Below are positions 1 through 15,122 of a DNA stretch of 15,122 nucleotides, one piece after another. Position numbers and translations under genes: made by a program. The notes under the pieces are model-generated. The model searched no databases, was not told where the DNA came from, and saw only the letters and a list, made by a program, of their open reading frames with translations. This DNA comes from an uncultured Collinsella sp. Lineage in GTDB: Bacteria > Actinomycetota > Coriobacteriia > Coriobacteriales > Coriobacteriaceae. Location: the NCBI GenBank assembly GCA_900551205.1, contig URUW01000017.1:1-15122 (forward strand), given 5' to 3'. Position 1 is the first letter of the stretch. Each line of letters begins with the position of its first letter.

Positions 1-767
1 TACTTTACGTGTGCCATGTCGTTGGCCGAAGCGTCTTCGGCAAGCTCTGGATCGTAGATCGAAGCCATGCGTGCGTTCGCTCCGAATCCGATGGATGCGC
101 TGGAGAACGGCTGGCTGGAGCCCTCTCGGTACAGATCGATCGTGCCGGCGGTCAGCAAAGTGTTGCCGTCGTTTCGCACCGTGACCATGAAGGACTCGCC
201 TGCTGCTCCGGGCACCACCGCGCCCGAGGTAGCGACCGCGCCCGTCGGAGTGGCACACGCCACCAAGGGCACTTCGATGCCGTGCAGCTCTGCCTCGCTC
301 TTCTCCGCGCTCACAATGTGCGTGGCGAGCGCGGAGAGCATGCCTCCCGACGTCAAAAATGTCGTTATCTGATCGACGGGATGGTCCAGCTCGCACATCA
401 CGAACGGTTCCGTGAAAAGATCGCCTGCCAAGGTGCTGGCGAAGATGCGGAAGTGCTTGCCCATCACTGCTACCGGGTTGCCTTCTTCGTCGTAGGTTTG
501 TCCCACCTTGCCGTCGGTGTTCTCTACATAGAGCACGCATCTGCCGTTGTTGCTTATGCTAAACGATGCCGGGCCACAGCCTGCGGCACCCACGGGCTGC
601 GTTGCAAATGCCGATGCGCCTCGCGTCCAAGTAATATGCTGCAGCTGCTCGTTGACGGTGGCCAAAAAGCCCGAATGTTGTGGCCACGGCACCGCATGGG
701 GCACCGTGGCGTCTGGTGGCATAACGCCCCAGCCCGCAATGGACTGGCCGATCACGGCGTACGATGC

Positions 768-770
768 TCA
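768..770 (-). other. In-frame TGA stop inside the Tat-exported protein gene
   Basis: The segment ending AYETADGCG meets TGA here. The same frame then continues ASYAVIGQSIAGWGVMPPD with no further stop to the window edge, 255 codons. A single substitution from CGA, GGA or TGG would produce it. The response regulator gene in this window ends with TGA, so TGA is an ordinary stop in this genome. Confidence 0.75.
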
Positions 771-1055
771 GCCGCAACCGTCTGCGGTCTCGTACGCAAC
801 GGGCACCACCATTTTGCCGTTGATATTCTCGGGCCCGCTCAGCTCGATACTCGACGGTGCCTGCGGAAAGCGAAGAACTTGGCGGAACGTCAGGCTGTCG
901 CCCAAATCATCTGACCACAGGGTAAAGCATTCCAGCGCAACCTCAGCCTCGCTGCCGAGCGCCTTCTCTGCGGTGGTTCCGCGGCGGTGGAGGTAGGCAC
1001 CCGACAGGCGTCCGTCGACCAGCGTCTTGCCTACCGTGATGCAGGCAATGGTAGC

Positions 1056-1106
1056 CATCCTCCTGCAGGCGGCCGCGCGAGATGCTGCGCCACGACGTGT
1101 GCGATA
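1056..1106 (-). other. Frameshift site in the Tat-exported protein gene
   Basis: Reading along the minus strand, sensible protein in one frame (ending RVISHTSWRSISRG) gives way to sensible protein in the +1 frame (MATIACITVGKTLVDG). The second frame has a stop at 1107-1109, so the shift must lie between there and about 1056. One extra base in the CC at 1059-1060 (GG on the coding strand, inside AGGAGGATGG) explains it: removing it gives ...RLQEMATIAC.... No long homopolymer or classical slippery heptamer is present. Confidence 0.7.
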
Positions 1107-3849
1107 TCACTCGAACTCCGTCGTTGCTTATGCGCAGGCGCACAACGGACAGTATGCCGGATGTGCTCGCCGTATCGAAAAGGGTGTTGTCGCCGGCGGG
1201 GCGCTCGCCCGAGACCAGCAGCACGTAGGCGTCCTGGTTTCCCCTCTCGTCCGTATATTCCACCACGTCGAAGTCGTAATCGTATATGCCGTCGCGCTCC
1301 ACGTCGCCCTCGCCAAACCCAAGGGGAAAGTCCACGGGCGTGGGGGCGGACCACGTGCCGTTTGCCCTTGTGTGCACCACCAGGCGCGAGCGGCCATTGT
1401 CGCCGTAGCACACCGAGGCGATACGGAACAGGCATTCTACGCCGGCAATCATTGCCAGCTTCATGTGGGCTTCGCTGAGCACGCCGGAAAACAGCACGTT
1501 GTCGCTCGAGGGTTTTATGCCGCCACGCTCGTCCTCCGACACGCCGGCAGAATTGGCGTTGGGGTCCGCAACGGCGTTCGTTGCCTGACCGATGTAGGTG
1601 TACTCATACATCGGCGCGGCGTTTTCGTCGTTTTCTATCAGTGCATGGACGAAATGCTCGATCTGTCCCGTGTCGTCGCTTTCTGCATCCGCCTCGAGCT
1701 CAATGCGCGTGACCGCTTGATCCCAATCGCGCACGACAGACGCGACGTTTACGGCAGTGGCCTTAACCTCGGCGCGTGCGAGCAGCTCGGCGTTGGTGAC
1801 GATGGTGGCCGATGCGACAAGCTGCGGCACGCCCCCTGCCTCGGCGTTGCCGGCCGAGCCGAAGCAGGCATCCAGCGTATAAGGCGTATCCCCACCCAAT
1901 GCAAGCTCAGAGCACTGGAGTACATACTGGTCGCCGTTGTTCACCGACATATTCCACGAATCGAGGAGTGTGGGCCACGATCCCGACCAAGCTTTGGTGG
2001 TCCACTTGAACATTACGAACTGGAGTATCACATCGACATCGACGTCTGCACCTACGCGTAGTCGCGGAAGCTGGTGTCCATCCGCCTTCTCGTATCCAAT
2101 GAACAGCGTGAGGGATGCGGCGCCACGCACGGCGGACGAAGCGACGCCTGCAACGCCGGCTCCAAAGGTGACGGCAAGTCCGATCTGGATGGTGAACGAG
2201 CCCGACGTGTTGGAATAGTCGAGCGAAATGTTCTTGAAAAACGCCGCGCCGCTGCCGTGCGTGTGGGCGCCCACGGCGAGCGCCAGTTTTGCCAGCACCC
2301 AGGGGTTGACGTTTAGGAAAAACGGCACCGGTCCTAGGGTAAACTGCTCGGTCCAATTGAGGTCGGTTCTTACCTGGAAGAGGGCCTTAATGTTGCCGTA
2401 TGCGGGGTCGTTGTTGTCACCCCAGGTTTTGCCCACCCAATCGTAGGCGAGCGAGCCGTACAGCTGTGTGGCGATATCCATCGTGAACAGCGGCGTGCAA
2501 TGGTGGCGAAGGAGCTTGGTGTTTCTTGGATCGGTGCCCGAACCGGCACTCATACTTTTGTACTGATTCCACTTCCCCTCCATTTCGTTGAGGTAGCGGT
2601 TTGCCTGCTTGGCGCCCGACTCGCGCGGTGACTTCTTCCAGTACTCCGGATCCGGATTGCCCGAATCGTTCATATAGCTGGCTGGTTTGTATCCTCCGCC
2701 AAACAGCACGTATCCAGCAAACGAGAAATCGAAGAGGATCGGAAATGTGGGCATCCAGCACGTGAACTTATTACCACCGATGCCGGGAAACGATGCGGGG
2801 AAATCAAACGGAGTGATCTCTTGGTCCATAGTGGTGGGGACGATAGTGGTCGATCCGGATTCCGCCTTTGCCGCCGGCGCGGTAACAACGGCCATGGGGG
2901 AGGAGAGCGTGTAGGTTTTGCCCTGGTAGTCGAGGACAAAGCGCAGCTTGCATCCTTCTTCCAGAAGGCTCGACGTTGCATCGAGGAACTTGTCTTCGAG
3001 TGTGAACGTCGCCAGACTATCCGCGCCCGATGCGCTGGCCTTGATCTGACCAATCTGCGTGACGGTTTCGGTTGAGCTGCCCGCAGCGGGCATCACTTTA
3101 TTGATATGCAATGTTGCCTGCCCGCCCTGCGGCAGATGAGCCTGCACGGTAAAAGCGTGCGTGTCGGGCTGGTCGTTTGCTGCTTCGTCCGCTGGCATTG
3201 CCATAAACGTGGCGTCGGCGTACTGGATGTCCCATTCGTCGAACGTGAGCTGGCGGAAGTACGGCTCGCCGTCGGAAAGCGGACGTGTGGGTGCGGTTAT
3301 GGCGGTGCCGCCCTGGATACGCGCAAGGGGAATCTCGACATCACGGTAGCCCGCCATGCTAATGGAGATGCCGCCGTTAAAGTCGTACGCGTCAAGGAGC
3401 GTTGCCTCGTCCACGTAGCCTTCCGAAAGAGGGGCGACCTCAAAGATGGCCGTGCCTTCGTCATCGGTCGTGGCGGTTAGCTGCTTGCCTACGGCATAGC
3501 GCGATGTGAGCGTGACCTGGGCACCTGCGATGGGCGTATTCTTGTTGGCGACGTCGACCACGACCACACCAAACATGGTGCGCGAGAGAACGAGCACCTT
3601 GAAGGGGTCTTCTTCGTCGGCATAGGCCGCGGTGGGCGCGAACGGCAGCAGGAAGGCATTTTCGCTTCCCGGCACGCGAGGCAACATAATGCTCGCCAGC
3701 GAGGACGCTCCGGTAACAAGTAACGAACGGCGATCAAGCATCTTGGGCTCCCATCCCGCAAATATCGGTGGAAATAATCCAATTTTGCGAGAAGACGCTT
3801 CGTGGCGGTAGTGCCGTTCAAGGGTCAAAATGTCCAAATTGATCGAGCG

Positions 3850-3883
3850 AAGCGCCGGGTTCCGGAACGCGTTCGATGCGCTT
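3850..3883 (-). other. Inverted-repeat region between the LuxR gene and the Tat-protein gene
   Basis: Within the 155 bp gap are two overlapping perfect 10-bp palindromes, GTTCCGGAAC (3859-3868) and GAACGCGTTC (3865-3874). They are flanked by outer arms AAGCGC (3850-3855) and GCGCTT (3878-3883). This could be a stem-loop after the regulator gene, though no T-run follows on the minus strand, or an operator for the LuxR-type protein upstream of its neighbour. No convincing -35/-10 pair was found in the gap. Confidence 0.3.
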
Positions 3884-3896
3884 GGCAGCCCGGTCG

Positions 3897-4901
3897 CTAA
3901 CGCAACATGTGCGCGACCAGCTCGGCGCGTGTGCCGATGCCAAGCTTTGCGTATACGCCGGATAGGCGGTTTTTGACGGTGCCCGGCGATACTCCCATAT
4001 GGCGTGCGATTTCGGCGTTGGTCCATCCGCGGCAGGCGAGCATGGCCATGGTGAACTCTGTGGTTGTTAAATCGTCGGCAACGTCCTCGCCCGAATCGGG
4101 GTTGTGGATGCGCCGCCAGCCGTAGCTGAAGTGGTACGTGATCTCGATGATGCGTGCGAAGTCGTCAGGGTATTGCGTTTTTAGGCATGCCTCGATGAGC
4201 CCCTGCAAAAGGCCATGGTGTTCGCCGATGAGTTCGATAAGGCCGTCGGGACGCGCAATGTTCCAAGCAGCTCCGAAATGCGTCCTTGCAGCGTCGACGT
4301 CTTTGAGACTCATGCAGGCCATGGAAGCTGCCAGGTGCAGGAACAGTTCCGAGATGGGATAGCTTCCCTGTTTCATGATCAGGGCGTTTTCCGCCATGCC
4401 CAGACTGCGGCCATATTCGCCGCGCAGGTACAGGGCATGCGCCATCACGTAGCTGGCGAACAGTCGCAGGCCTTCGGGCAGATGCGCCGCAAGCGGATAA
4501 AACTCTTCGGCAGAATACGGGGAAGGCAAGTGCAGCAGGACGCTCGCGGCCGAGGCGAACAGGATATGCGTGGCGTGGACGGCGGGTGATTCCTCGTCGG
4601 CCGGCGTATCGAGGATGCCCGCAAGGCAACGGCGGGCATCGGCGATACGGTTGAGCGACAGACTGGCATATCCGCAGATAAAGCATGCGGAATAGCGCAG
4701 TGCGGGATCGGTGGCGTCAAGATAGGGGCGCGCCGTCTTGGCAGCAAGGGTGGCCTGTCCGCGAAAGTACAGCGCTTCTGCCGTGGCAATGGCGCGCGAA
4801 TCGGGGTCGGAAATGCCTGCAACCGCAGCGTCCATCTGCCCCGGCACAAAGGCAGTGCACATCAACGGCATGGGAACGCATGGGTAGCCATCGCAGTCCA
4901 T
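3897..4901 (-). CDS. LuxR-family transcriptional regulator with helical N-terminal region
   Basis: A 334-residue predicted DNA-binding protein. The C-terminal ~58 residues are a LuxR-type helix-turn-helix: LTTTEFTMAMLACRGWTNAE, then IARHMGVSPGTVKNRLSGVY and AKLGIGTRAELV. Residues ~30-270 are Ala/Leu-rich and helical, possibly TPR-like, with no receiver or PAS signature visible and no membrane segment, so it is probably not a classical two-component partner. I chose the ATG at 4901 because GGGAG sits 7 nt upstream; an earlier in-frame ATG at 4937 would add 12 residues, including a hydrophobic LLLL stretch, and has poorer support. It points toward the Tat-exported protein gene 155 bp downstream on the same strand, which is its likeliest target; this is inference. 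The gene itself appears intact even though its neighbour is broken. Confidence 0.85.
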   Translation of the reverse strand: MDCDGYPCVPMPLMCTAFVPGQMDAAVAGISDPDSRAIATAEALYFRGQATLAAKTARPYLDATDPALRYSACFICGYASLSLNRIADARRCLAGILDTPADEESPAVHATHILFASAASVLLHLPSPYSAEEFYPLAAHLPEGLRLFASYVMAHALYLRGEYGRSLGMAENALIMKQGSYPISELFLHLAASMACMSLKDVDAARTHFGAAWNIARPDGLIELIGEHHGLLQGLIEACLKTQYPDDFARIIEITYHFSYGWRRIHNPDSGEDVADDLTTTEFTMAMLACRGWTNAEIARHMGVSPGTVKNRLSGVYAKLGIGTRAELVAHMLR

Positions 4902-4936
4902 CTTCCATCTCCCAACAGCTGGCAACAATAGCAGCA

Positions 4937-4965
4937 ATTGTACTCCTGTTGCTCGGGACTTGAAT
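4937..4965 (-). promoter_or_regulatory. Possible promoter of the LuxR-family gene
   Basis: On the minus strand a TACAAT -10-like hexamer (4942-4937) lies about 36 nt upstream of the chosen ATG. A poor -35 (ATTCAA, 4965-4960) sits 17 bp further upstream. An inverted repeat GCAACA (4922-4927) / TGTTGC (4947-4952) straddles the -10 and could be an operator. The assignment is weak because the -35 match is low. Confidence 0.3.
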
Positions 4966-5103
4966 TTGTGGGTATCGCCTACGATTGTGCCGAACGTATA
5001 AAGGAAGAGTCTATTGGCGATGCTCCCAAGGTGGCTACCGAAGCCTAGCTGACCTCGACATTAGGAAAAAATACCACCCCTGTAAAAAGCTCTGTCGCAG
5101 CGA

Positions 5104-5132
5104 TGGGAAACGCATCTCGTTCTGCATATAAT
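5104..5132 (+). promoter_or_regulatory. Probable sigma-70-type promoter of guaA
   Basis: A perfect TATAAT (5127-5132) lies 66 bp before the guaA start, in an otherwise non-coding gap. The hexamer 17 bp upstream (TGGGAA, 5104-5109) is a poor -35. Transcription would begin near 5139 and give a leader of about 60 nt. Confidence 0.55.
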
Positions 5133-5198
5133 GAGGTCATGTGACGGTGCGTTTGCATACGTGTAACGCATTCCCATCGAACCGAAAAGGAGCTCTGC

Positions 5199-6179
5199 AT
5201 GGATCCCAACAAGCGTCCCGACGACATGGTGCGTATCACCACTCCCGAACTTGCCCAGGCGTTCATCGAAGAGCAGGTCGCTGCAATCCGCGAGCAGATC
5301 GGCGACAAGAAGGTCCTGCTGGCCCTTTCGGGCGGCGTTGACAGCTCGGTTGTCGCGGCCTTGCTCATCAAGGCCATCGGCAAGCAACTCATCTGCGTGC
5401 ACGTGAACCACGGCCTGATGCGCAAGGGCGAGAGCGAGCAGGTCGTCGACGTCTTCAAGAACCAGATGGACGCCAACCTGGTCTATGTTGACGCGACTGA
5501 TCGCTTCCTGGATAAGCTCGTGGACGTCGAGGAGCCCGAGGCCAAGCGTAAGATTATCGGCGCCGAGTTCATTCGCGTGTTCGAGGAGGAGGCCCGCAAG
5601 GTTGGCGACGAGGTTAGCTTCCTCGCCCAGGGCACCATCTATCCCGACATCCTGGAGTCCCAGGATGGCGTGAAGGCTCACCACAACGTGGGCGGCCTGC
5701 CCGATGACCTGCAGTTTGAGCTCTGCGAGCCCGTCAAGCTGCTGTACAAGGACGAGGTGCGCGTCGTGGGCCGCGAGCTCGGCCTGCCCGAGAACATGGT
5801 TGAGCGTCAGCCGTTCCCCGGTCCTGGCCTGGGCGTCCGCTGCCTTGGCGCCATCACCCGCGACCGTCTTGAGGCGCTGCGCGAAGCCGACGCCATCGTG
5901 CGCGAGGAGATCGACAAGGCAGGTCTGACCATCTGGCAGTATTTTGCCGTCGTGCCCGACTTCCGCGCCACCGGCGTGCGCGAGGGTAAGCGCGCCTACG
6001 ACTGGCCCTGCATCATCCGCTGCATCAACACCGTTGACGTCATGACCGCCGAGGTGCCCGAGCTCGACTGGGCGCTGCTCAAGCGTATTACCGCTCGCGT
6101 CACCGCCGAGGTTCCCGGCATCTGCCGAGTGTGCTACGACCTCACGCCGAAGCCCGTCGGCACGGTCGAGTGGGAGTAA
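5199..6179 (+). CDS. guaA: GMP synthetase, ATP-pyrophosphatase (C-terminal) subunit only
   Basis: Catalyses the adenylation and amination of XMP to GMP in purine synthesis. The 326-residue protein has the PP-loop SGGVDS (44-49), then [12 protein letters not shown], the substrate region [20 protein letters not shown] and the GuaA C-terminal dimerisation domain ([20 protein letters not shown]). It ends TVEWE, matching the family C-terminus. The usual one-chain enzyme is about 510-525 residues with an N-terminal glutamine amidotransferase of ~200 residues; that domain is absent here. This is not a wrong start: an in-frame TGA at 5142-5144 closes the frame, and AAGGAG sits 6 nt before the ATG. 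The architecture matches the two-subunit synthetases known best from archaea, so a separate amidotransferase should exist elsewhere, or the enzyme uses ammonia. Codon use is strongly biased to C/G-ending codons, suggesting high expression. Apparently monocistronic. Confidence 0.93.
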
Positions 6180-6212
6180 GCTAACTCAGCTGGTAGGCGA
6201 CGAGAACTAGCA

Positions 6213-6303
6213 GATGTGACAAAGGGACAGTCCCTTTGTCACATCCTCGATATTATGTGCGGGATGGTACGCCACGCGGCGTGCCATCCCGTTCGTTATT
6301 TTA
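6213..6303 (+). repeat. Two-hairpin intergenic repeat, copy 1
   Basis: This unit lies 33 bp after guaA. It begins with a perfect 15-bp inverted repeat (GATGTGACAAAGGGA 6213-6227; complement 6231-6245; 3-nt gap CAG), then a 15-nt spacer, then a 13-bp GC-rich hairpin and a T-rich tail. The same arrangement recurs after the CoA-disulfide reductase gene (12179-12268). Over 82 aligned positions with no gaps I count about 13 differences. Confidence 0.85.
6261..6303 (+). terminator. Rho-independent terminator after guaA
   Basis: Stem GGGATGGTACGCC (6261-6273) pairs with GGCGTGCCATCCC (6278-6290) across loop ACGC, with one G-U pair, followed by GTTCGTTATTTT. The T-rich tail overlaps the last codons of the convergent histidine kinase gene (stop 6296-6298). 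On the minus strand no T-run follows, so it probably acts only for guaA. Confidence 0.75.
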
Positions 6304-7444
6304 ATGAGCCGAGTGCGCGAGTGGGAAGAGTCACGAGCATGGTCGTTCCGCGCTCCGAGCTCTTTTCGACCTCGATGGAGCCGCCGTGAAGTGCGGCGAT
6401 CTCCCAGACCAGCGCAAGCCCCAGCCCCACGCCGCCGTATGCCCTGCTGCGCGATTTGTCGACGCGATAGAAGGGCTGAAAGATGCTCGTCTGGTATTGC
6501 TCGGGAATGCCCGGCCCCTGGTCGCGCACGCGTAGCAGCACGCGGTCGCCTTCGGCGCAGGCGTTGATTTGCACGGTCGAGTTGGGCGCGCTATAGCGTA
6601 TGGCGTTTTCGGTCAAGTTGAACAGCAACCGATAGATCAGCGTGTCGCTGCCGATCGTTTGCGCGTCGCCCTCACTTGTAAGCGTGATGTCTTTTTGCTC
6701 GGCAAGGGGTGCCAGGTCCGTGAGCACTTCTTCGATCATCGGCGCTAGGTCAATCACATCGTTGCAAGGGACACTGCGCAGCTCGCTCATCTCGAGCAGG
6801 GTCTTTGTCATGTGCGTCATTCGCTCGGTCTGCTCCTGCAGCAGCCCGAGCAGGCTCGCTGTATCGGCGTCGACGTCGGGGTGCTCGGCGCAAAACAGCT
6901 CGACCTGGGCCTGCATGAGCGCAAGTGGCGTGCGCAGCTCGTGCGCCGCATTGCCCGTAAACTGTCTTTGTGCGGAAAATCCCTCGTCAAGGCGGGCAAT
7001 CATGTCGTTAAACGACGCGCTGCAGCGCCTGAGTTCAGAGGGCACGTCCTCGCTGATTTTTGTGTCGGCGAGGTTGTCGGGCCGCACGCTCTCGACTTGC
7101 GTCGCAAAGAAGCGCAACGGCCGCAGCGCATGTCCGCTTACAAAGTAGGCCAGCACGCCGCCGAGCAGCGTCACCGCCGCAGTTATATACCAGCTCGTCG
7201 CGCCAAACGATTCTTGGGCGTCGTTCACGACGATGGTCAGCGCGTCGTCGAGCTCTTTGTTTGTCGGGTCAAATGAGCTGGGCGAGGCCGCCTCCACCTT
7301 GCTGTGCGCCGACGCTTCTGCACCAATCGAGTCCATGTAGCGCATGCCGGAGTAGCCAACCAGGCAATTCATAAGTACGCAGGTCGAACATATCAGCAGT
7401 GCCGTCATCAACGTGATGCGCCACTGCAGCGACAACCGCTTCAT
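6296..7444 (-). CDS. Membrane sensor histidine kinase
   Basis: A 382-residue two-component sensor. Membrane segments are at ~10-32 and ~87-104, enclosing a short outside loop of about 55 residues with no recognised ligand fold. A HAMP-like linker follows (~105-158). The HisKA motif NAAHELRTPLALMQAQ carries the phosphoacceptor His168. The ATPase domain has the N box LLFNLTENAIRYS (Asn280), G1 DQGPGIP (308-314), F box FQPFYRVDKSRSR and G2 GGVGLGLAL (337-345), so all catalytic parts are present. The start overlaps the stop of the response regulator by 4 nt (ATGA), indicating translational coupling. The small sensor loop suggests detection at or in the membrane. The divergent redox operon is the obvious candidate target, though the sequence alone does not prove it. 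Confidence 0.93.
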   Translation of the reverse strand: MKRLSLQWRITLMTALLICSTCVLMNCLVGYSGMRYMDSIGAEASAHSKVEAASPSSFDPTNKELDDALTIVVNDAQESFGATSWYITAAVTLLGGVLAYFVSGHALRPLRFFATQVESVRPDNLADTKISEDVPSELRRCSASFNDMIARLDEGFSAQRQFTGNAAHELRTPLALMQAQVELFCAEHPDVDADTASLLGLLQEQTERMTHMTKTLLEMSELRSVPCNDVIDLAPMIEEVLTDLAPLAEQKDITLTSEGDAQTIGSDTLIYRLLFNLTENAIRYSAPNSTVQINACAEGDRVLLRVRDQGPGIPEQYQTSIFQPFYRVDKSRSRAYGGVGLGLALVWEIAALHGGSIEVEKSSERGTTMLVTLPTRALGSLK

Positions 7445-8115
7445 TTGCCATCCTCCATAACGTAGCCTTCGCCGATTCGGTTGCGGATGGGGTCGTGCCC
7501 CAACGCGCCGCGCAGCTTTTTGCGCAGCGACGAGATGTGCACGCGGGTCGCGTTGCTAAAGCTGTTGACGCTGCTGTCCCATACGTGGTCGATGAGCTCC
7601 TCCTGGCTCACCGGCCGCCCCTGGTTAAGCATCAGGTATTCCAAGATGCCGGTCTCCTTGCGCGTGAGGGACAGGATCTCGTCGCCCACTGTGGCGAGGC
7701 GCGCCTTGGTGTCAAAGCTCAGCGATCCACAGGTTAGAACAACGTCGCTTTGTGTAAAGCGTCTGAGGGTAAGGCTGCGAATCCTTGCCGCAAGCTCGTC
7801 AAGATGAAACGGCTTGGTGAGGTAGTCGTTGGCGCCCGCATCGAGCCCCGCTACCTTGTCGGAGACCTCGCCACGTGCCGAGAGCACAAGCACCTTGGTC
7901 TCACAATCAGCTGTCCTGAGTTGCCTGAGCACGGTCATGCCGTCGACATGGGGGAGATTGAGGTCGAGCACGACAAGATCAAAGGTCTCGACATCGAGCA
8001 GATCGAGGGCCTGCTGCCCGTCGTAGCAGCAGTCGACGCTATAGGCCAAGTTGCGCAGGCTGCGTGCGATCGCATCGCACAGCGCCCGCTCGTCCTCGAT
8101 GACCAAGATGCGCAT
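7441..8115 (-). CDS. OmpR/PhoB-family response regulator
   Basis: A 224-residue DNA-binding partner of the overlapping histidine kinase. The receiver domain (1-~112) has the acidic pair Glu8-Asp9, phosphoacceptor Asp51 in LVVLDLNLP, Ser79 in LVLSARGE and Lys101 in DYLTKPF. The C-terminal winged helix (~128-222) shows LSLTRKETGILEYLMLNQGR, the recognition region NATRVHISSLRKKL and the terminal IGEGYVM hairpin. Start chosen at 8115 with AAGGAG 6 nt upstream. It is first in its operon and is transcribed away from the small CXXC peptide gene, the two starts being 89 bp apart, so the shared gap probably contains its binding sites. Confidence 0.94.
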   Translation of the reverse strand: MRILVIEDERALCDAIARSLRNLAYSVDCCYDGQQALDLLDVETFDLVVLDLNLPHVDGMTVLRQLRTADCETKVLVLSARGEVSDKVAGLDAGANDYLTKPFHLDELAARIRSLTLRRFTQSDVVLTCGSLSFDTKARLATVGDEILSLTRKETGILEYLMLNQGRPVSQEELIDHVWDSSVNSFSNATRVHISSLRKKLRGALGHDPIRNRIGEGYVMEDGK

Positions 8116-8204
8116 AACGTTCTCCTTGCATAATCATTCACGCTTAACACGGATTTTATAGTCGGTATGGTCCAATGGGTCGCGAAACGAAAGGAGTGGT
8201 CAGA
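8116..8204. promoter_or_regulatory. Shared divergent control region between the two-component system and the redox operon
   Basis: This 89-bp gap must hold promoters for both directions. On the plus strand TATAGT (8157-8162) is the best -10 candidate, with no good -35 at 16-18 bp. The ribosome sites are AAGGAG at 8190-8195 (plus) and the complement of CTCCTT at 8122-8127 (minus). No clear direct repeat typical of an OmpR-type operator was seen by eye. Confidence 0.35.
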
Positions 8205-8351
8205 TTGTTCAAAGCGATTAAGCCTGTGGCGCAGGTGGCTTTGCTGATCGTTGGGGTAGCCATGGTTGGCTTTGGAATTATGCGCGGCGAGGCAGATGCC
8301 GTGCTGGCCAAGGCAATCAGGCTGTGCTTGGAGTGTATCGGAATTGGATAA
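8205..8351 (+). CDS. Small CXXC membrane peptide, CD1871A-like
   Basis: A 48-residue peptide starting with TTG at 8205, 8-9 nt after an AAGGAG ribosome site; no in-frame ATG exists upstream. Residues ~7-25 form one hydrophobic membrane segment (VAQVALLIVGVAMVGFGIM). It is followed by RGEADAVLAKAIRL and the C-terminal CLECIGIG with a CXXC pair (Cys41, Cys44). The RGEA...VL.KAI..CLECIGIG pattern matches, from memory, the family named after Clostridioides difficile CD1871A, tiny proteins found beside membrane 4Fe-4S and TlpA-type proteins. Its role is not established to my knowledge; a thiol relay between membrane electron donor and lipoprotein is inferred. The end overlaps the next gene by 8 nt. 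A gene finder with a 50-residue cutoff or ATG-only starts would miss it. Confidence 0.8.
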   Translation: MFKAIKPVAQVALLIVGVAMVGFGIMRGEADAVLAKAIRLCLECIGIG

Positions 8352-9252
8352 AAGAAAAAACACTGCATCGCATCTTTTAGCGCGATTTCGTGGATTGATT
8401 CAGGCGGCGGCGACGCTTGCGACCAATATTCACCTGCCTAACTTTGCCAAGGGCGGCATCTACCAGGGAGCGGGCAAAGCCGTCTGCGTGCCGGGCCTCA
8501 ACTGCTACTCGTGTCCAGCGGCCTCGGGTGCGTGCCCCATCGGGTCGTTTCAGTCGGTGGGCTCGTCTAAGTTTAGCTTCTCGTATTACGTCACCGGAAC
8601 GCTCATTCTGATCGGCGTGCTGCTGGGACGTTTTGTATGCGGCTTTTTGTGCCCGTTTGGATGGCTACAAGAGCTTTTGCATAAGATTCCCAGCAAAAAG
8701 CTCTCCACGAAAAAGCTCAAGCCGCTCACGTACATCAAGTATGCCGTGCTGCTGTTTGCCGTGGTGCTGCTGCCCGTCTTGGTGGTTAACGATGTGGGTA
8801 TGGGCGACCCGTTCTTTTGCAAGTACATCTGCCCGCAAGGTGTGCTCGAGGGCGCGATTCCGCTGTCCATCATGAACGTGGGAATCCGCTCCGCGCTGGG
8901 AAAGCTCTTTTCCTGGAAGCTCGCGATCCTCATTGTGGTTGCGGTGCTGAGCGTGCTGTTCTATCGCCCCTTCTGCAAATGGATTTGCCCCCTCGGCGCA
9001 TTTTATGCGCTCATGAACAAGGTGTCTTTGCTGGGGATCCAGGTTGACCAGTGCAAATGCGTCTCGTGCGGCAAGTGCGCCAAGGTGTGTCAAATGGACG
9101 TGGACGTTACGCGTACGCCCGACCATGCCGAGTGCATTCGTTGCGGCAAATGCGTGGGCGCGTGCCCCGTCGATGCTATTAGCTTTCGCTATGGGCTGGG
9201 TGTGACGGGCGACAAACCCGCGCAGTCCACGCAAGCCTGCGAAAACAAATAG
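8344..9252 (+). CDS. NapH-like membrane 4Fe-4S protein
   Basis: A 302-residue polytopic protein of the NapH/YccM-like iron-sulfur family. A Cys-rich segment near the N-terminus (CVPGLNCYSCPAASGACPIG, from Cys48) precedes membrane helices at ~83-103, ~130-150 and ~190-210. Paired CxxxCP motifs follow the helices: FVCGFLCPFG (99-103), FCKYICPQG (159-163) and FCKWICPLG (211-215). The C-terminus is a two-cluster ferredoxin: CVSCGKCAKVC (239-249) and CIRCGKCVGACP (264-275). I chose the TTG at 8344, which overlaps the peptide gene by 8 nt, with GGAG about 10 nt upstream, because homologous proteins begin shortly before the FRGLIQ-like region. The ATG at 8266 would put 26 residues in a different frame across the small peptide gene and looks wrong. 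Likely takes cytosolic electrons into the membrane; acceptor unproven. Confidence 0.88.
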   Translation: MDKRKNTASHLLARFRGLIQAAATLATNIHLPNFAKGGIYQGAGKAVCVPGLNCYSCPAASGACPIGSFQSVGSSKFSFSYYVTGTLILIGVLLGRFVCGFLCPFGWLQELLHKIPSKKLSTKKLKPLTYIKYAVLLFAVVLLPVLVVNDVGMGDPFFCKYICPQGVLEGAIPLSIMNVGIRSALGKLFSWKLAILIVVAVLSVLFYRPFCKWICPLGAFYALMNKVSLLGIQVDQCKCVSCGKCAKVCQMDVDVTRTPDHAECIRCGKCVGACPVDAISFRYGLGVTGDKPAQSTQACENK

Positions 9253-9287
9253 GTACCTATATAAGTTTCGATATAAACGGAGGAACC

Positions 9288-10250
9288 ATGAAACTGTCAA
9301 AAATTGCAGCTCTGTTGATGCTGCCCGTGCTGGCGCTGACTCTCGCGGCGTGCTCTGCCCCCAAGGGCGACGCGAAGGGTGCTACGAGCGGCGATGCGCA
9401 GATTGCCGAGCTCATAGCGCAAAAGCCGTCGAGTGCCGAGGAGGCGGCCGAGCTGTACCAGCAGCTGCTGCAAAAGGAAAACGAGATCTTTGCGAGCGAT
9501 AACGCCCTATGGGAAAAGGTGTTCCTTGCGGCCAACAAAGACACCCCCATGATTGAGGACGGCAAGAACTACGGTGACTTCTTGCTCGATACCATCGAGG
9601 GCGCCAAGGATCAGTTTGCGGCTGACGAGCTTAAGACGCTTAAGGCCGGCGCGCAGCAGGTCAAGGAGATCGAGGACAAGCTCATGGCGCTGGAGAAGGA
9701 GTTCCCCGGATGTGGCAGCACGCCCGGCGAGGGGGAGAGCGTTGATGCCTCGACCGCGGGTATGACCAACGGCGAGAGCGGGGAGACGAAGTTCCCCAGC
9801 TTTAAGGGCAAGGACTTGGACGGCAACGATGTAAACAGCGACGAGCTGTTCTCCAAGAACAAGGTCACCGTCATGAACTTCTGGTTTACCACCTGCAAGC
9901 CGTGCGTGGGAGAGCTGGGCGATCTGGAGAAGCTCAACAAGGAGCTTGCCGAGAAGGGCGGCCAGGTCGTGGGCGTTAATTCCTTTACGCTCGATGGCAA
10001 CAAAGACGCGGTGGCCGATGCCAGGGACGTGCTTTCCAAGAAGGGCGTGACGTATAAAAACATCTGGTTTAAGTCGGACAGCGAGGCCGGAAAGTTCACC
10101 TCCAACCTGTACTCGTTCCCGACCACCTACGTGATCGACCAGAACGGTAACATTGTGGGAGAGCCGATCATGGGCGGCATCAACTCCGCTGAGCAGCGCG
10201 AGGCGCTCAACAAACTGATCGATCAGGCACTCGCGAAGAGCGAACAGTAA
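9288..10250 (+). CDS. TlpA-like thiol-disulfide oxidoreductase lipoprotein
   Basis: A 320-residue exported protein. The signal peptide ends in the lipobox LAAC with lipidated Cys22, so it is anchored on the outer face of the membrane. Residues ~35-140 are helical and charged (SSAEEAAELYQQLLQKEN) and contain one extra Cys142. A Gly/Ser/Glu-rich linker (~143-165) leads to a C-terminal thioredoxin fold of AhpC/TlpA type (~168-316), with active site FWFTTCKPCVGEL (Cys203, Cys206) and cis-proline loop YSFPTTYVID (Pro278). Ribosome site GGAGG lies 5 nt before the ATG. It is 35 bp after the 4Fe-4S protein gene with no terminator between, so the three genes should share an operon. It probably reduces extracytoplasmic disulfides using electrons from its neighbours; substrate unknown. 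Confidence 0.92.
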   Translation: MKLSKIAALLMLPVLALTLAACSAPKGDAKGATSGDAQIAELIAQKPSSAEEAAELYQQLLQKENEIFASDNALWEKVFLAANKDTPMIEDGKNYGDFLLDTIEGAKDQFAADELKTLKAGAQQVKEIEDKLMALEKEFPGCGSTPGEGESVDASTAGMTNGESGETKFPSFKGKDLDGNDVNSDELFSKNKVTVMNFWFTTCKPCVGELGDLEKLNKELAEKGGQVVGVNSFTLDGNKDAVADARDVLSKKGVTYKNIWFKSDSEAGKFTSNLYSFPTTYVIDQNGNIVGEPIMGGINSAEQREALNKLIDQALAKSEQ

Positions 10251-10275
10251 GTCCGTGGGACAGACAACTGAAGGG

Positions 10276-10303
10276 GAGTCGCTGGAAACAGCGACTCTTT
10301 TTT
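10276..10303 (+). terminator. Rho-independent terminator of the redox operon
   Basis: A perfect 9-bp stem GAGTCGCTG / CAGCGACTC (10276-10284 and 10289-10297) with loop GAAA is followed at once by six T. It lies 25 bp after the TlpA-like gene stop and is the clearest intrinsic terminator in the window. Confidence 0.93.
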
Positions 10304-10321
10304 CTGCTTCGGGGTAGCATC

Positions 10322-10474
10322 ATGGGTATACGTCGAAAGGGCACGCAGCTTTTCGTGCATTGCCTGAGCGGTGCGCGAAGCAACCAAGCTGTGAGTTTTC
10401 TTAAGCGTTCTGGGTATGGCAGTGTCAAGAATATCGGCGGCATAAGCGGCTACACGGGAAAGGTGGTGCGTTAG
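10322..10474 (+). pseudogene. 5'-truncated rhodanese domain fragment
   Basis: A 50-codon open frame encodes the C-terminal half of a rhodanese: LFVHCLSGARSNQAVSFLKR, then GYGSVKNIGGISGYTGKV. The active-site loop is intact (Cys14 to Arg19, CLSGAR). The N-terminal half of the domain, with the usual DVR and GHIPGA motifs, is absent: upstream are only an unrelated stretch and the terminator at 10276-10303. It ends 2 nt before the start of the CoA-disulfide reductase. It is probably the remnant of a separate rhodanese gene. If still translated, from the ATG at 10322 with a weak GGGG upstream, it could couple ribosomes into the next gene, whose own ribosome site is poor. A short functional sulfurtransferase is unlikely. 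Confidence 0.6.
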
Positions 10475-10476
10475 CT

Positions 10477-12168
10477 ATGAAGGTGGTTATCGTTGGAGGC
10501 GTCGCGGGCGGCGCATCGGCGGCGGCACGTTTGCGCAGACTCGACGAGCAGGCCCAAATTGTCATCTTTGAGCGCACGGGTTTTGTATCGTATGCCAACT
10601 GTGGGCTTCCGTACTACATTGGCGGCGTGATAGAAGAAGAGAGCGCATTGACGCTGCAGTCTCCCAAGGGCTTTTGGGATCGCTTTCGCATTGCGGTCAA
10701 GACGAGTCACGAGGTGTTTGCCATCCATCCCGATTCGCATACGGTCGAGGTTCGCAATATGCTGACGGGCGAGGAATTTGTCGAGACGTATGACAAGCTC
10801 ATCCTGTCGCCGGGTGCAAAGCCGATTCGCCCTGCGTTGCCGGGCATCGACTCGGATAAAATCTTTAGCCTACGCACCGTTGAGGACACGCTGCGTATTC
10901 ACAGCTATGTTCGAGAGCGGCGACCGAGCAGTGCCGTCGTGATCGGCGGCGGCTTCATTGGCGTCGAGACGGCGGAGAATCTGTGTGAGCTGGGGCTCCA
11001 GGTGACCCTTCTGCAGCGTCCCGTCCAGCTTATGAACAACCTGGATTACGACATGGCGACCCTTTTGCATACCGAGGTGCGTGAGCACGGTATCGATCTG
11101 CGCCTCAAGGCCGATGTGACAGGTTTTGAGGAAGTTGATGGCCGCGTTGTCACCCATGTTGCGGGCGATGACCCTATCGGAGCCGATATGGTGCTGCTTG
11201 CCATTGGCGTGGCACCTGAGAGCCATCTGGCGCAAGAGGCGGGGCTCGAACTGGGCATCAAGGGGGCTATTGTGGTCAACGACCGCATGGAGACCTCTGC
11301 TGCCGACGTGTATGCCGTGGGCGATGCCGTGCAGGTCACGCATCAGGTGACCGGCGAGGACGCGGTCATTTCGCTCGCCGGCCCCGCCAACAAGCAGGGG
11401 CGTGTCGTCGCCGATGTCATAGCCGGCATGGACAGCTGCTACCGCGGATCGTTGGGCTCATCGGTTATCAAGGTATTCGACTTGACGGCGGCAAGCACGG
11501 GACTATCCGAAAAGGCAGCACACGCGGCGGGAATTGACTGCGACAGCGTGGTCCTGTCGCCCGGTTCGCATGCGGGTTATTATCCGGGTGCAACGCCCAT
11601 GACCATGAAGGTTGTCTTCGAGAAGCAGGGATTGCGCCTGCTGGGTGCGCAAATCGTGGGCATCGATGGTGTGGACAAGCGTATCGACGTTCTGGCGACT
11701 GCCATCCAGGCAGGCATGTGCGGCGATAGGCTTAAGGATTTGGACCTAGCATACGCGCCGCCGTATTCATCGGCGAAGGATCCCGTCAATATGGCGGGCT
11801 TTATGATCGAGAACCTCAATCGCGGCATACTGGCGCAGTGGCATTGGGAGGATGAGCCCAACTTGCCACGCGATGGCAGCGTGCAGCTGCTCGATGTTCG
11901 TACGGAAGGGGAGTACGAGCGCGGGCATATCGATGGTTTCGTAAACATTCCCGTCGATGATCTGCGCAATCGCCTGGGCGAGCTCGACCGGGCCAAGCCG
12001 GTCTACGTGATTTGCCAGAGCGGCATTCGCAGCTACATTGCTTGCCGCATTTTGGCGCAGTATGGCTTTGAGTGTTTTAACTTCTCGGGCGGCTATCGCT
12101 TCTTTGCAGCCGTGACTGTGGCTCGCCGCGGCAGCGCTAACGTTATGCCGTGCGGGCTCGAAAAGTAG
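10477..12168 (+). CDS. CoA-disulfide / persulfide reductase with C-terminal rhodanese domain
   Basis: A 563-residue flavoprotein of the CoADR-rhodanese fusion type. The N-terminal FAD fold begins VVIVGGVAGGASAAARLRR; the single redox cysteine is Cys42 in SYANCGLPYYIGG. A second nucleotide-binding motif, VVIGGGFIGVETAENL (154-169), is for NAD(P)H, and AADVYAVGDAV (275-285) contacts FAD. The dimerisation domain contains AYAPPYSSAKDPVNMAG. The rhodanese domain (~467-555) has LLDVRTEGEYERGHI and active-site Cys513 in VICQSGIRSY. Known members reduce CoA disulfides, CoA persulfides or polysulfides with NAD(P)H and act in the cytosol. The ribosome site is weak (GGTGG 10 nt upstream), and the gene starts 2 nt after a rhodanese remnant. 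It lies beyond the redox-operon terminator, and I see no convincing promoter of its own. Length is normal for the family. Confidence 0.93.
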   Translation: MKVVIVGGVAGGASAAARLRRLDEQAQIVIFERTGFVSYANCGLPYYIGGVIEEESALTLQSPKGFWDRFRIAVKTSHEVFAIHPDSHTVEVRNMLTGEEFVETYDKLILSPGAKPIRPALPGIDSDKIFSLRTVEDTLRIHSYVRERRPSSAVVIGGGFIGVETAENLCELGLQVTLLQRPVQLMNNLDYDMATLLHTEVREHGIDLRLKADVTGFEEVDGRVVTHVAGDDPIGADMVLLAIGVAPESHLAQEAGLELGIKGAIVVNDRMETSAADVYAVGDAVQVTHQVTGEDAVISLAGPANKQGRVVADVIAGMDSCYRGSLGSSVIKVFDLTAASTGLSEKAAHAAGIDCDSVVLSPGSHAGYYPGATPMTMKVVFEKQGLRLLGAQIVGIDGVDKRIDVLATAIQAGMCGDRLKDLDLAYAPPYSSAKDPVNMAGFMIENLNRGILAQWHWEDEPNLPRDGSVQLLDVRTEGEYERGHIDGFVNIPVDDLRNRLGELDRAKPVYVICQSGIRSYIACRILAQYGFECFNFSGGYRFFAAVTVARRGSANVMPCGLEK

Positions 12169-12178
12169 CGCGCATTGG

Positions 12179-12268
12179 AATGTGACAAAGTGACAGCCTC
12201 TTTGTCGCATCGGGGATGTTATATGCGGGATGGTGCGCCATGCGGCGTGCTGTCCCGTTCGTTTTTTG
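12179..12268 (+). repeat. Two-hairpin intergenic repeat, copy 2
   Basis: Begins 11 bp after the CoA-disulfide reductase stop. It has the same plan as copy 1 at 6213-6303: an outer hairpin (ATGTGACAAAG 12180-12190 with CTTTGTCGCAT 12200-12210, one G-U pair), a 16-nt spacer, then a 13-bp hairpin and a T-tract. About 84% identity to copy 1 without gaps. Three substitutions within the second stem all turn a normal pair into G-U on the plus strand. Confidence 0.85.
12227..12267 (+). terminator. Rho-independent terminator after the CoA-disulfide reductase gene
   Basis: Stem GGGATGGTGCGCC (12227-12239) pairs fully with GGCGTGCTGTCCC (12244-12256) when G-U pairs are allowed (four of them), with loop ATGC, then GTTCG and six T (12262-12267). 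It separates the reductase from the ABC transporter gene. Confidence 0.78.
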
Positions 12269-12389
12269 GCGCGGTTCGTTACACTTCTCACTGGTATCGG
12301 CCAAAAATGAGGATAGAGTAGGACAAACGCGCCGAACGTGAACGGCGGGGGAGCGGGCGAGCGCGCCCGCGCGAGAGAGGTTGCCGTCC
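12268..12389 (+). promoter_or_regulatory. Leader region of the ABC-FtsX gene, with a GC-rich hairpin
   Basis: This 122-bp gap must hold the transporter promoter, but no good -35/-10 pair is evident (TAGAGT at 12314-12319 is the nearest -10 candidate). A GC-only stem GCGGGC / GCCCGC (12353-12358, 12365-12370) sits just before the GAGAGG ribosome site (12374-12379) and could restrict translation; this is inference. Confidence 0.3.
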
Positions 12390-15122
12390 ATGCTGGATCT
12401 CAGAGTTATTTGCAAAAGGTACGTTACGCAGTCGTTTACGCAGGTAGCGCTCGACAGCGTAAGCCTGTCTTTTCGCGATAACGAGTTCGTAGCCATTCTG
12501 GGTCCCTCGGGTTCGGGTAAAACTACGATGCTCAACGTCATCGGTGGACTCGATCATTTCGATTCGGGCGATCTGCTGATCGACGGCATCTCGACCAAGG
12601 ACTTCAACGACCGCGATTGGGATGCCTATCGCAATAATCGCATCGGCTTTGTGTTCCAGAGCTATAACCTCATTCCGCATCAGAGCATTTTGGAAAACGT
12701 GGAGTTGGCGCTTACGCTCACGGGCGTGGGGCATGCCGAGCGCCGCCAACGTGCGCGCAAGGCGTTGGAGAAAGTCGGCCTGGACGAGCACATTAACAAG
12801 CGTCCGAGCCAGCTTTCGGGCGGACAGATGCAGCGCGTGGCCATTGCCCGCGCCCTGATTAACGATCCCGAGATTGTGCTGGCTGACGAGCCGACCGGCG
12901 CCTTGGACTCAACGACATCCGTACAGGTTATGGATTTGCTCAAGGACGTTGCGCGCGACCGTCTGGTCATCATGGTCACGCACAATCCCGAGCTGGCGTA
13001 CAAGTACGCCACGCGCATCGTCAATCTGGCGGACGGCAAGATCACCGACGATTCCGACCCCTTCGATGCTGCTAATGCTGCGCGTCGCGAGGCTAAGCCT
13101 ACGCGCAAAACCTCGATGGGCTTTGTGACGGCGCTGGGGCTTTCTGCCCGAAACCTTATGACCAAGAAGAGACGTACGGCCATGACGGCCTTTGCGGGCT
13201 CGATTGGCATTATCGGTATCGCGGCGATTCTGGCGCTGTCCAACGGCGTAAACGGCTACATCAAAAAGGTCGAGGAGGATACGCTCTCGAGCTACCCGCT
13301 CACGATTTCCAAACAGGATTACGACCTGTCGGCCATGATGGGCGGACAGGGGGCCACGGATGACAATACGTCCAACGGCGAGGATTCGTCCGACGACGGC
13401 ACCGACGGCAAGGCTCAGGGAACCGATAAAATCCCCGTGGTCACGGCCGTAAAGGATATGTTTGCGAGCGTTAAGTCCAACATGACGAGCTTTAAGGCAT
13501 GGCTCGATGCCGGTGGCGACGGCATCGATAAAGAGGTCAACGCCATTCAGTACGGCTATGGCGTGACGCCGGTTGTCTATCGAGCGGGCAAGGGGGACGA
13601 GAAACCCGTGCGTCTGGTGCCCAACGCCATGACCGAGGCCATGAGCGGAGGCGCGAGCTCGGCAGCAACGGTGAGCATGGAGTCCATGGGAACCTCGGTC
13701 TTTAACGAGATGATTGACGACCAGAGCTTGCTCGACAGCCAGTACGATGTCGTGGCGGGGCATTGGCCTACGTCTGCTAACGAAGCCGTGATGGTGCTTT
13801 CGAGCCGTGGCACGGTGGGCGATTACACGCTCTACAGCATCGGTGCGCTGGAAATCGATGAGCTCAACGGCCTGGTTAACAGCGCCATGACGGCCGACGG
13901 CAAGGTCGAGACGCCCAAGACCGGCAGCGACTTTACCTACGACGACGCGCTGTCCACGGCGTTTAAAGTGTTGTCGCCGGCCGATGCCTATCGCAAAAAC
14001 GAAGAGACCGGCATGTGGACCGACATGTCTGGCGATGCCGACTTTATGGCCGCCAAGGTTACTGACGGTATTGACGTGCGCATTGTGGGCGTGGTGCGAC
14101 CGAACGAGACGGCCAATGCGAGCGCGTTGTCTCCGGGCATTGCCTATACGCATGCGCTGACTCGCCAGCTTATGGAGCGCGCCGCCAATTCGCAGATCGT
14201 AAAAGAGCAGCTTACGCATTCCGAGACGGATGTCTTTACGGGCAAGTCTTTCGATGAACTGCAGGGCGAGGCCAAGCAGGGCGTGGATCTGGGCAGCATG
14301 TTCAGTGTGGACGAGGCGGCGTTGAAGAGCGCGTTCTCGTTCGATGCATCTGCACTCTCGGGTGCTGCCGGTGGCATGGATCTTTCGGGCATCGATTTGT
14401 CGGGCCTGGATATTGACCTTTCGGGCGTTGGCAAGGACATCGACTTCAGCAGCATCATGGCAAAAGCACCGGCCCCAGATTTCTCGGGCATCTTTGACGG
14501 TCTGGAGCTCACGCCCGAGCAAATGCAGCAGGTGGGAACGCTTGTCAACCAACTGTTTGAGGGCTTTTTGCAGTCTGATCAGTTTAAGGCGCTGTCGCCC
14601 GAAGATCTTAAGGACGCGTCGAAGCTCGCCGCCGCGTTCTCGTCGTATCTTGAGAATGATGTCGCAGCCCAGCAATACCTGGCTCAGCTCAGGGCGCTCG
14701 GCGGCGATGCCCTGGCCGAGCGTCTGCAGCAGGTGATGGGCGACTATGTGCAAAAGCAGCTGGCTCCGTATTTGCAGCAGTCTATGGATCAGGTGATGAA
14801 GGCGGTCAGCGAGCAGATTGCCACGACGGTATCAGCTCAGCTCAAGGCGGGCGCGGCAGGGCTTATGGACCAGATGGCGACGCAGATGTCTTCGAGTTTT
14901 GCCAACCTGGCGAGCGCCATGCGCGTGGATGCGAACGCCTTTGCTCGTGCCATCCACTTCAACATGGACGCCGAGGACCTGAGCTCGCTCATGATGAGCT
15001 ATGCCAAGGCGTCGAAGCTCACCTACGACAACAATCTGACCACGTTGGGCTATGCGGACGAGGCGGACCCCATTTCGGTCAAGATTTTCCCGCGCGACTT
15101 TGAGGCCAAGGAGCGCGTGCTC
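12390..15122 (+). CDS. ABC transporter ATPase-FtsX permease fusion protein, 3' end beyond window
   Basis: The first 911 residues are visible and the frame is open to the right edge. The N-terminal ATPase (1-~225) is of the MacB/LolD type with Walker [10 protein letters not shown] (38-46), Q-loop Gln90, signature LSGGQ (142-146), Walker B IVLADEP (162-168) and His198. A linker leads to a basic stretch (TKKRRTAM) and one membrane helix (~266-286, [20 protein letters not shown]), as in FtsX-type permeases. From ~287 to at least 911 I see no other membrane helix: over 620 residues of extracytoplasmic region with an acidic low-complexity patch (~328-350), a short LSGxD repeat near 650-675 and long Ala/Gln-rich helices (~705-850). 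Remaining helices must lie outside the window. Such systems are usually mechanotransmitters or peptide/lipid exporters rather than importers. Start ATG at 12390 with GAGAGG 10 nt upstream. Substrate unknown. Confidence 0.9.

Follow-up and report, generated by a model that had tools for sequence, protein, structure and literature searches.

A conserved and mobile gene module with a predicted role in carrying electrons across the membrane to a surface thioredoxin-fold lipoprotein in Coriobacteriia and Bacillota

We analyzed a 15,122-nucleotide stretch of a contig of an uncultured Collinsella sp. (URUW01000017.1, positions 1 to 15,122, assembly GCA_900551205.1; hereafter the window), in which the gene for a small CXXC membrane peptide forms an operon with the genes for a NapH-like iron-sulfur membrane protein and a TlpA-like lipoprotein, facing a divergently oriented two-component system. 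Our analysis indicates that these genes form a conserved and mobile module, which probably delivers reducing power to a surface thioredoxin. Statements on whole genomes rest on the nearest genome, G001, and on other relatives; the locus of G001 (L063, sampled a second time as L089; CAMQHT010000019.1, uncultured Collinsella) is 95.8% identical to the window across 14.8 kb.

On the reverse strand, the window encodes a sensor histidine kinase (6296-7444) with two hydrophobic segments, a short outer loop and HisKA and HATPase_c domains, and an OmpR-type response regulator (7441-8115) whose gene shares 4 nt with the start of the kinase gene. The intergenic region of 89 bp that follows (8116-8204) has a core, CTTAACACGGATTTTATAG...ATATGGTCCAAT, that is largely kept in 24 aligned gaps of relatives (23 distinct) and contains a promoter-like TTAACA-16-TATGGT on the forward strand (8144-8171), a consensus match of a kind found at three sites in 4.5 kb against 1.3 expected. 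The forward strand then carries the genes for a CD1871A-family membrane peptide (48 amino acids; 8205-8351), a NapH-like iron-sulfur membrane protein (302 amino acids; 8344-9252; 8-nt overlap with the peptide gene) and a TlpA/ResA-like thioredoxin-fold lipoprotein (320 amino acids; 9288-10250), followed by an intrinsic terminator (10270-10303) made of a hairpin with a GAAA loop and a T-run. Hairpin and T-run together have a folding energy of -21.9 kcal/mol (z -6.0); despite this strong fold, the hairpin is missing from the list of the consensus scan. An original prediction, made from the letters of the window, had described a two-component system and a three-gene operon with a strong terminator, and all of these parts were found at 6296-10303. 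Its gene list, its 89-bp gap (8116-8204) and its active-site residues Cys203 and Cys206 are correct; the kinase that it named is present, although it lies almost wholly (6296-7444) outside the interval given (7441-10303).

The linkage of these genes was examined in two samples. The first comprised 246 Coriobacteriia genomes, in which the peptide profile NF040920 gave 54 matches in 52 genomes (in 51 of them above the curated cut-off), and all 54 neighbourhoods were examined; the second was chosen by the iron-sulfur protein, not by the peptide, and consists of the 80 top-ranking named loci out of 592 or more. Five loci of the second sample duplicate the first (L089-L093 = L063, L040, L073, L086 and L088), so that the 134 loci represent 129 distinct ones. 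A NapH-like gene adjoins the peptide gene in 53 of the 54 Coriobacteriia loci, the exception being L056, where the contig ends just past the peptide, and a TlpA-like gene was found by tblastn in 49. Of the 80 loci selected by the iron-sulfur protein, which come mostly from Bacillota, 79 have the peptide and 69 a TlpA-like gene, which in 66 cases is encoded on the same strand within 3 kb. The carriers include several families of Bacillota as well as Coriobacteriia and three metagenome-assembled genomes labelled Spirochaetales. The TlpA-like gene may stand ahead of or behind the other two, and this variable order makes the persistent association more telling.

The block also moves between genomes. 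A Tractidigestivibacter locus (L091) is 91.3% identical to the window over positions 6304-10235 only, that is, from the kinase through the lipoprotein, with flanks that do not match, and a 7.0-kb stretch of L041 (3872-10827; G088, of another family) is 99.5% identical to L074 (1-6954; G124, of the genus of the window). The latter identity points to a recent transfer of the five-gene block plus some flank between two bacterial families, and both cases argue that the five genes travel together. The existence of the module, its conservation and its mobility are confirmed, with a linkage far beyond chance. The earlier claim that the three genes are one conserved module is thus upheld by the linkage in both samples and by natural fusions of the iron-sulfur protein with TlpA, and the survey of peptide neighbourhoods that had been proposed as its check, when run, revealed conserved linkage where a lack of it would have counted against the claim.

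The strongest evidence for a joint action of the iron-sulfur protein and TlpA comes from the natural fusions. In L169 and L170 (both from the class of Clostridium sp. OS1-26), a NapH-like protein, a hydrophobic stretch and a thioredoxin domain are one polypeptide, and in a protein search with the L169 fusion, 119 of the 120 best homologues listed carry Fer4_5 together with Redoxin/AhpC-TSA, the exception being named as partial. Since the ferredoxin domain is expected inside and a hydrophobic stretch intervenes, the thioredoxin domain of the fusion would lie outside. The separate lipoprotein of the window has a lipobox (LAAC), a CKPC motif (Cys203/Cys206; 9894-9905) and a match to PF00578 (AhpC-TSA) with a score of 57.0 (cut-off 26). 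It shares fold, CXXC and membrane anchoring with the ResA, TlpA and DsbE lipoproteins, but it falls below their equivalog or subfamily cut-offs (47.2/170 for ResA, 41.2/123.15 for DsbE and 40.2/230 for TlpA) and carries an extra N-terminal region of about 140 amino acids. Across the 117 TlpA-like proteins of both samples, a lipobox-like motif occurs within the first 60 residues in 102, and the CXXC lies beyond residue 60 in 115 and at residue 60 in the remaining two.

The NapH-like protein, which starts at a TTG (8344), matches Pfam Fer4_5 in two stretches and Fer4, and its structure model has a pLDDT of 86. With the NapH/NosR/RdhC module it shares a membrane part bearing two CX3CP motifs and, as in NapH, a C-terminal two-cluster ferredoxin domain; it is 23% identical to E. 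coli NapH in an alignment and misses the curated NapH cut-offs (TIGR02163/NF007013, 71.2 vs 213.05 and 58.8 vs 234). Eighteen cysteines are invariant across 70 homologues, forming an N-terminal four-Cys motif, three CX3C motifs and the two-cluster ferredoxin domain. Twelve of these are common with E. coli NapH, namely two CX3C pairs (C99/C103 and C211/C215) and eight ferredoxin cysteines, whereas E. coli NapH lacks the other six (Cys48, 54, 57, 64, 159 and 163), which include the third CX3C motif. Hydropathy and charge over the 70 sequences place loop 99-131 (mean of 6.0 Lys plus Arg) and the C-terminal domain (12.5 Lys plus Arg) inside, so that loops 37-80 and 151-188, which hold the six extra cysteines, are predicted to lie outside. 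Further differences from NapH/NosR/RdhC are that the system of the window has thiol partners instead of a terminal oxidoreductase and that searches for the quinone-synthesis enzyme UbiA gave no match in 62 of 80 carriers, as detailed below. For the majority of flavinylated NapH-like systems, the reactions are described as unknown in a passage of PMC8238504.

The peptide is a member of the CD1871A family (NF040920; 65.8 bits, cut-off 32), with the hydrophobic segment and the C-terminal CXXC both present. The name of this family derives from the motif, and the name CD1871A was not found in the open-licence PMC papers searched. The original prediction had stated that no settled function was known for the three-gene set; this holds for their joint function, but the parts are not without description, as the peptide family is already curated. 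The gene starts at a TTG (8205) preceded by an AAAGGAG box that ends 8 nt upstream and stops at 8351; an alternative ATG start (8175) lies just a few bases downstream of the promoter-like -10. A residue profile of 107 sequences, which were preselected for C..C[IV]G and hence not used as evidence for the cysteines, shows a K/R-rich N-terminus, one hydrophobic stretch roughly 19 residues long and then R-G-E, followed by a Lys that is conserved five positions ahead of the first Cys and by a C-terminal C-x-E-C-I/V-G-I/L-G, which in the window, with its single hydrophobic segment, reads CLECIGIG (Cys41, 8325-8327; Cys44, 8334-8336). Among peptides found by profile, the CXXC is invariant in 54 of 54 from the Coriobacteriia sample and in 79 of 79 from the iron-sulfur-protein sample, and positive-inside reasoning predicts that it faces outside.

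At L171 (4968-5110, forward strand), an in-frame TGA falls exactly at the first CXXC Cys codon of the peptide, in a genome that encodes SelB (385 bits, cut-off 242). This is compatible with selenocysteine, but as one case it may also be a broken gene or a point nonsense mutation. Two further variants of the peptide were observed. In the loci that carry the NapH-like-Redoxin fusion gene, the adjoining gene (L169, 5001-5897; L170, 5001-5828; both reverse strand) encodes a membrane protein of some 230 residues, without a Pfam match, to whose C-terminal end the peptide is joined. At L177 (5001-5156, reverse strand), a peptide-like match below the cut-off lacks both cysteines and has no iron-sulfur gene nearby.

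Neither the kinase nor the regulator reaches the curated cut-off of any of the 25 families listed for it, the best NCBIfam match of the kinase being TIGR01386, a heavy-metal sensor subfamily (204.2 bits vs 292.55). An orthologous regulator (at least 45% identity) stands beside the peptide gene in 68 of 134 loci and is divergent in 56 (63 and 51 of 129 without duplicates). This frequency, the 91% identity of all five genes with another genus and the conserved promoter core support the proposal that the two-component system belongs to the module in this lineage. The core also occurs ahead of a secreted MsrAB gene in L042 and ahead of an eroded MsrAB copy in L044. MsrPQ, the methionine sulfoxide reductase system of E. 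coli, comprises a molybdoprotein and a haem membrane protein. The layout of the window, with a regulator facing the operon, parallels that of E. coli hprRS, a divergent two-component system that faces hiuH-msrPQ, an operon for moving electrons to a methionine sulfoxide reductase outside the cytoplasm (as described in part of PMC9302797). L042 shows the same layout with MsrAB. By score, however, the kinase and regulator of the window are not HprSR (133.2 vs 353 for the regulator against HprR).

Secreted MsrAB, of about 372 residues, is encoded in line with the trio in 6 of the 134 loci. It lies between regulator and peptide in L042, which belongs to the genus of the window, and downstream in L045, L095, L097 and L163; L042, L095, L097 and L163 each have an unbroken frame that covers both domains, and the MsrB part is truncated in L045. 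L044 (7195-7668, reverse strand) has an internally shortened, eroded copy in the same position as in L042, apparently a record of the loss of a client gene. MsrB was found in only three of the 30 carriers tested (G096, G175 and, as a fragment, G222), always at this operon. In Streptococcus, the CcdA-Etrx-MsrAB2 pathway of pneumococcus (PMC3914529, in part) and its S. gordonii counterpart (PMC7034828, in part) offer a precedent. They have in common with the window a membrane electron carrier, putative in the window, and a surface thioredoxin-fold lipoprotein, with MsrAB co-encoded in some relatives of the window; CcdA (PF02683), in contrast, works by thiol exchange from cytoplasmic thioredoxin, whereas the operon of the window encodes no CcdA and has the NapH-like protein together with the CXXC peptide instead. 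As a separate observation, DsbD_TM and MsrA matches lie in one apparent open frame of 741 codons in G014 (C1:525471-527141), apparently a CcdA-MsrA fusion within the same order, and about 0.7 kb apart in G240. It looks as if one repair enzyme were served by two different electron suppliers in this class.

None of the nine window proteins scanned matched PF02683 (CcdA/DsbD), and DsbD_TM is absent from G001 and from 47 of the 52 Coriobacteriia carriers. At class level, it is present in 5 of 52 carriers and 123 of 194 non-carriers (p 1e-12, a comparison confounded by ancestry), and at order level in 5 of 52 and 41 of 111 (p 3e-4). Scored by genus on the majority of members, the counts are 1 of 13 and 19 of 49 (p 0.045), and within the genus of the window 1 of 21 and 3 of 14 (p 0.28). 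In the class of Clostridium sp. OS1-26, they are 13 of 40 and 112 of 205 (p 0.015), or 12 of 39 carriers once G467, which is no true member, is left out. The module is usually found without CcdA, yet the two can coexist. The suggestion that the iron-sulfur protein and peptide replace CcdA is therefore borne out in part, by the absence of CcdA from G001 and 47 of 52 carriers, and weakened by its presence in 13 of 40 and 13 of 50 carriers elsewhere (the latter count covering 50 of 73 named carrier loci) and by the lack of significance at genus level on one of the two scorings (p 0.57, against 0.045 on the other).

We propose that the module is probably a quinone-independent, iron-sulfur-based transmembrane relay that reduces thiols and feeds a surface thioredoxin, in functional parallel to CcdA-Etrx-MsrAB. 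From the parts themselves, their linkage and fusions, the invariant cysteines, the MsrAB linkage and the co-transfer with the regulator, all of which are read from sequence, and from a topology prediction for the side of each cysteine, we infer the following course. In the cytoplasm, a low-potential donor, with ferredoxin or flavodoxin as the likeliest candidates, would reduce the two putative [4Fe-4S] clusters in the ferredoxin domain at the C-terminus. Electrons would then pass through the inner-face CX3C pairs of the membrane module to the outer site formed by Cys48, 54, 57, 64, 159 and 163, from there to the CXXC of the peptide at the outer membrane surface, and from the peptide to the CKPC disulfide of the lipoprotein. 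The lipoprotein would in turn reduce oxidized extracytoplasmic partners, which in some relatives may be secreted MsrAB. The divergent two-component system would switch the operon, plausibly upon envelope oxidant stress.

The placing of the peptide in this course has an unlikely alternative, in which the peptide is an assembly or stabilizing subunit with metal-binding or structural cysteines and the electron path is formed by the iron-sulfur protein and TlpA. The very small size of the peptide and the six outer cysteines predicted for its partner would fit this explanation, but the CXXC of the peptide is invariant in both samples with the spacing of a thiol-disulfide site, and the single Cys-to-TGA case, found where SelB is also encoded, is a hint of redox chemistry.

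It is rather improbable that the transfer is of NapH type and driven by quinol, with the membrane part oxidizing menaquinol and passing electrons to outer thiol proteins. The CX3CP-bearing membrane module is common with NapH, which is thought to use quinol, as some NapH-like proteins probably do (according to portions of PMC8238504 and PMC5928378), but the protein of the window is far under the NapH cut-offs. UbiA-type prenyltransferases are needed for quinone synthesis. In a survey of 80 of the 92 carriers, UbiA was found in 18 (16 above the cut-off) and not found in 62, including G001 and 20 of the 21 carriers of the genus of the window, which makes quinol unlikely as the donor unless foreign quinones are taken up. 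The ferredoxin domain is predicted inside, and ferredoxin or flavodoxin is therefore the obvious alternative to quinol.

We give little credence to a role in metal handling, in which a CcoG-like iron-sulfur protein would reduce copper or another metal, the lipoprotein would prepare a metal site as Sco1 does, and the two-component system would sense metal. The kinase match to TIGR01386 is joined by a regulator match to cztR/silR/copR (156.1 bits, cut-off 279.2) and by weak matches to SCO1/SenC (21.9 bits, cut-off 22.8) and CcoG (15.8 bits, cut-off 316.7), but every one of these is below its cut-off, and the operons of some relatives include secreted MsrAB, an indication of oxidant repair. A metal-like sensor is itself compatible with repair, since E. 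coli msrPQ is induced by a HOCl sensor and a copper sensor alike (part of PMC9302797). That the three genes are chance neighbours without a common function was rejected, as the linkage (53 of 54 and 79 of 80), the fusions and the block co-transfer leave it next to no probability and no support for it was found.

It should be noted that several observations weigh against the proposed thiol-reducing relay. No biochemistry was found for any of its steps. The MsrAB linkage is limited to the six loci mentioned, no MsrA was found in G001 and 33 of the 35 genomes of the genus of the window, and no MsrB in G001, so that the window's own lineage lacks the proposed client; the module therefore persists without Msr. 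The topology is drawn from hydropathy and positive charges, and the first N-terminal helix is weakly hydrophobic, although the side of the six cysteines is independent of that of the N-terminus. The function of CX3CP is unsettled in print (as stated in part of PMC5928378). The TGA was seen in one locus, where no match to an Rfam SECIS was found and the hairpin after the TGA is weak (z -1.27). CcdA co-occurs in 5 of 52, 13 of 40 and 13 of 50 carriers, genus counts scored on any member show DsbD_TM in 6 of 18 and 19 of 44 (p 0.57), and 70 of the order's 163 genomes lack both systems. Finally, the promoter core was not seen in the 60 bases examined of the L045 and L059 gaps.

Two features flank the module in the window. 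Past the terminator, a 50-amino-acid ORF (10322-10471, forward strand) matches the C-terminal half of rhodanese (PF00581, 19.5 bits vs cut-off 22.2, profile positions 59-100) and is probably a remnant; it lies ahead of a CoA-disulfide-reductase-like gene (10477-12165), which has a rhodanese domain of its own at its end. On the other side, 5199-6176 (forward strand) encodes a GMP synthase of 326 amino acids without the glutaminase part, matching only positions 196-512 of the 512-position model.

The separate parts of the module belong to known families, and their combination was not found described in the open-licence PMC papers searched. Tentatively, and with rather less confidence than we place in the relay itself, we suggest that the module may represent a further chemical class beside CcdA/DsbD, a transmembrane ferredoxin:thiol reductase in which one-electron iron-sulfur transfer would be converted to dithiol reduction at the outer six-cysteine site and the CXXC peptide, without quinone or cytoplasmic thioredoxin, and which would be carried between anaerobes as a mobile five-gene block with an oxidant-responsive regulator. 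With its natural fusions and its linkage to MsrAB, the module lends itself to direct tests. Strict anaerobes of the gut must also shield their surface proteins from oxidants, and many carriers of the module have no CcdA; to date, the export of electrons that keeps surface proteins reduced is known from another protein family. If the proposal is true, it would give a function to a widespread uncharacterized peptide family and to a branch of the NapH-like proteins, and it would constitute a second chemical solution for moving reducing power across the membrane.

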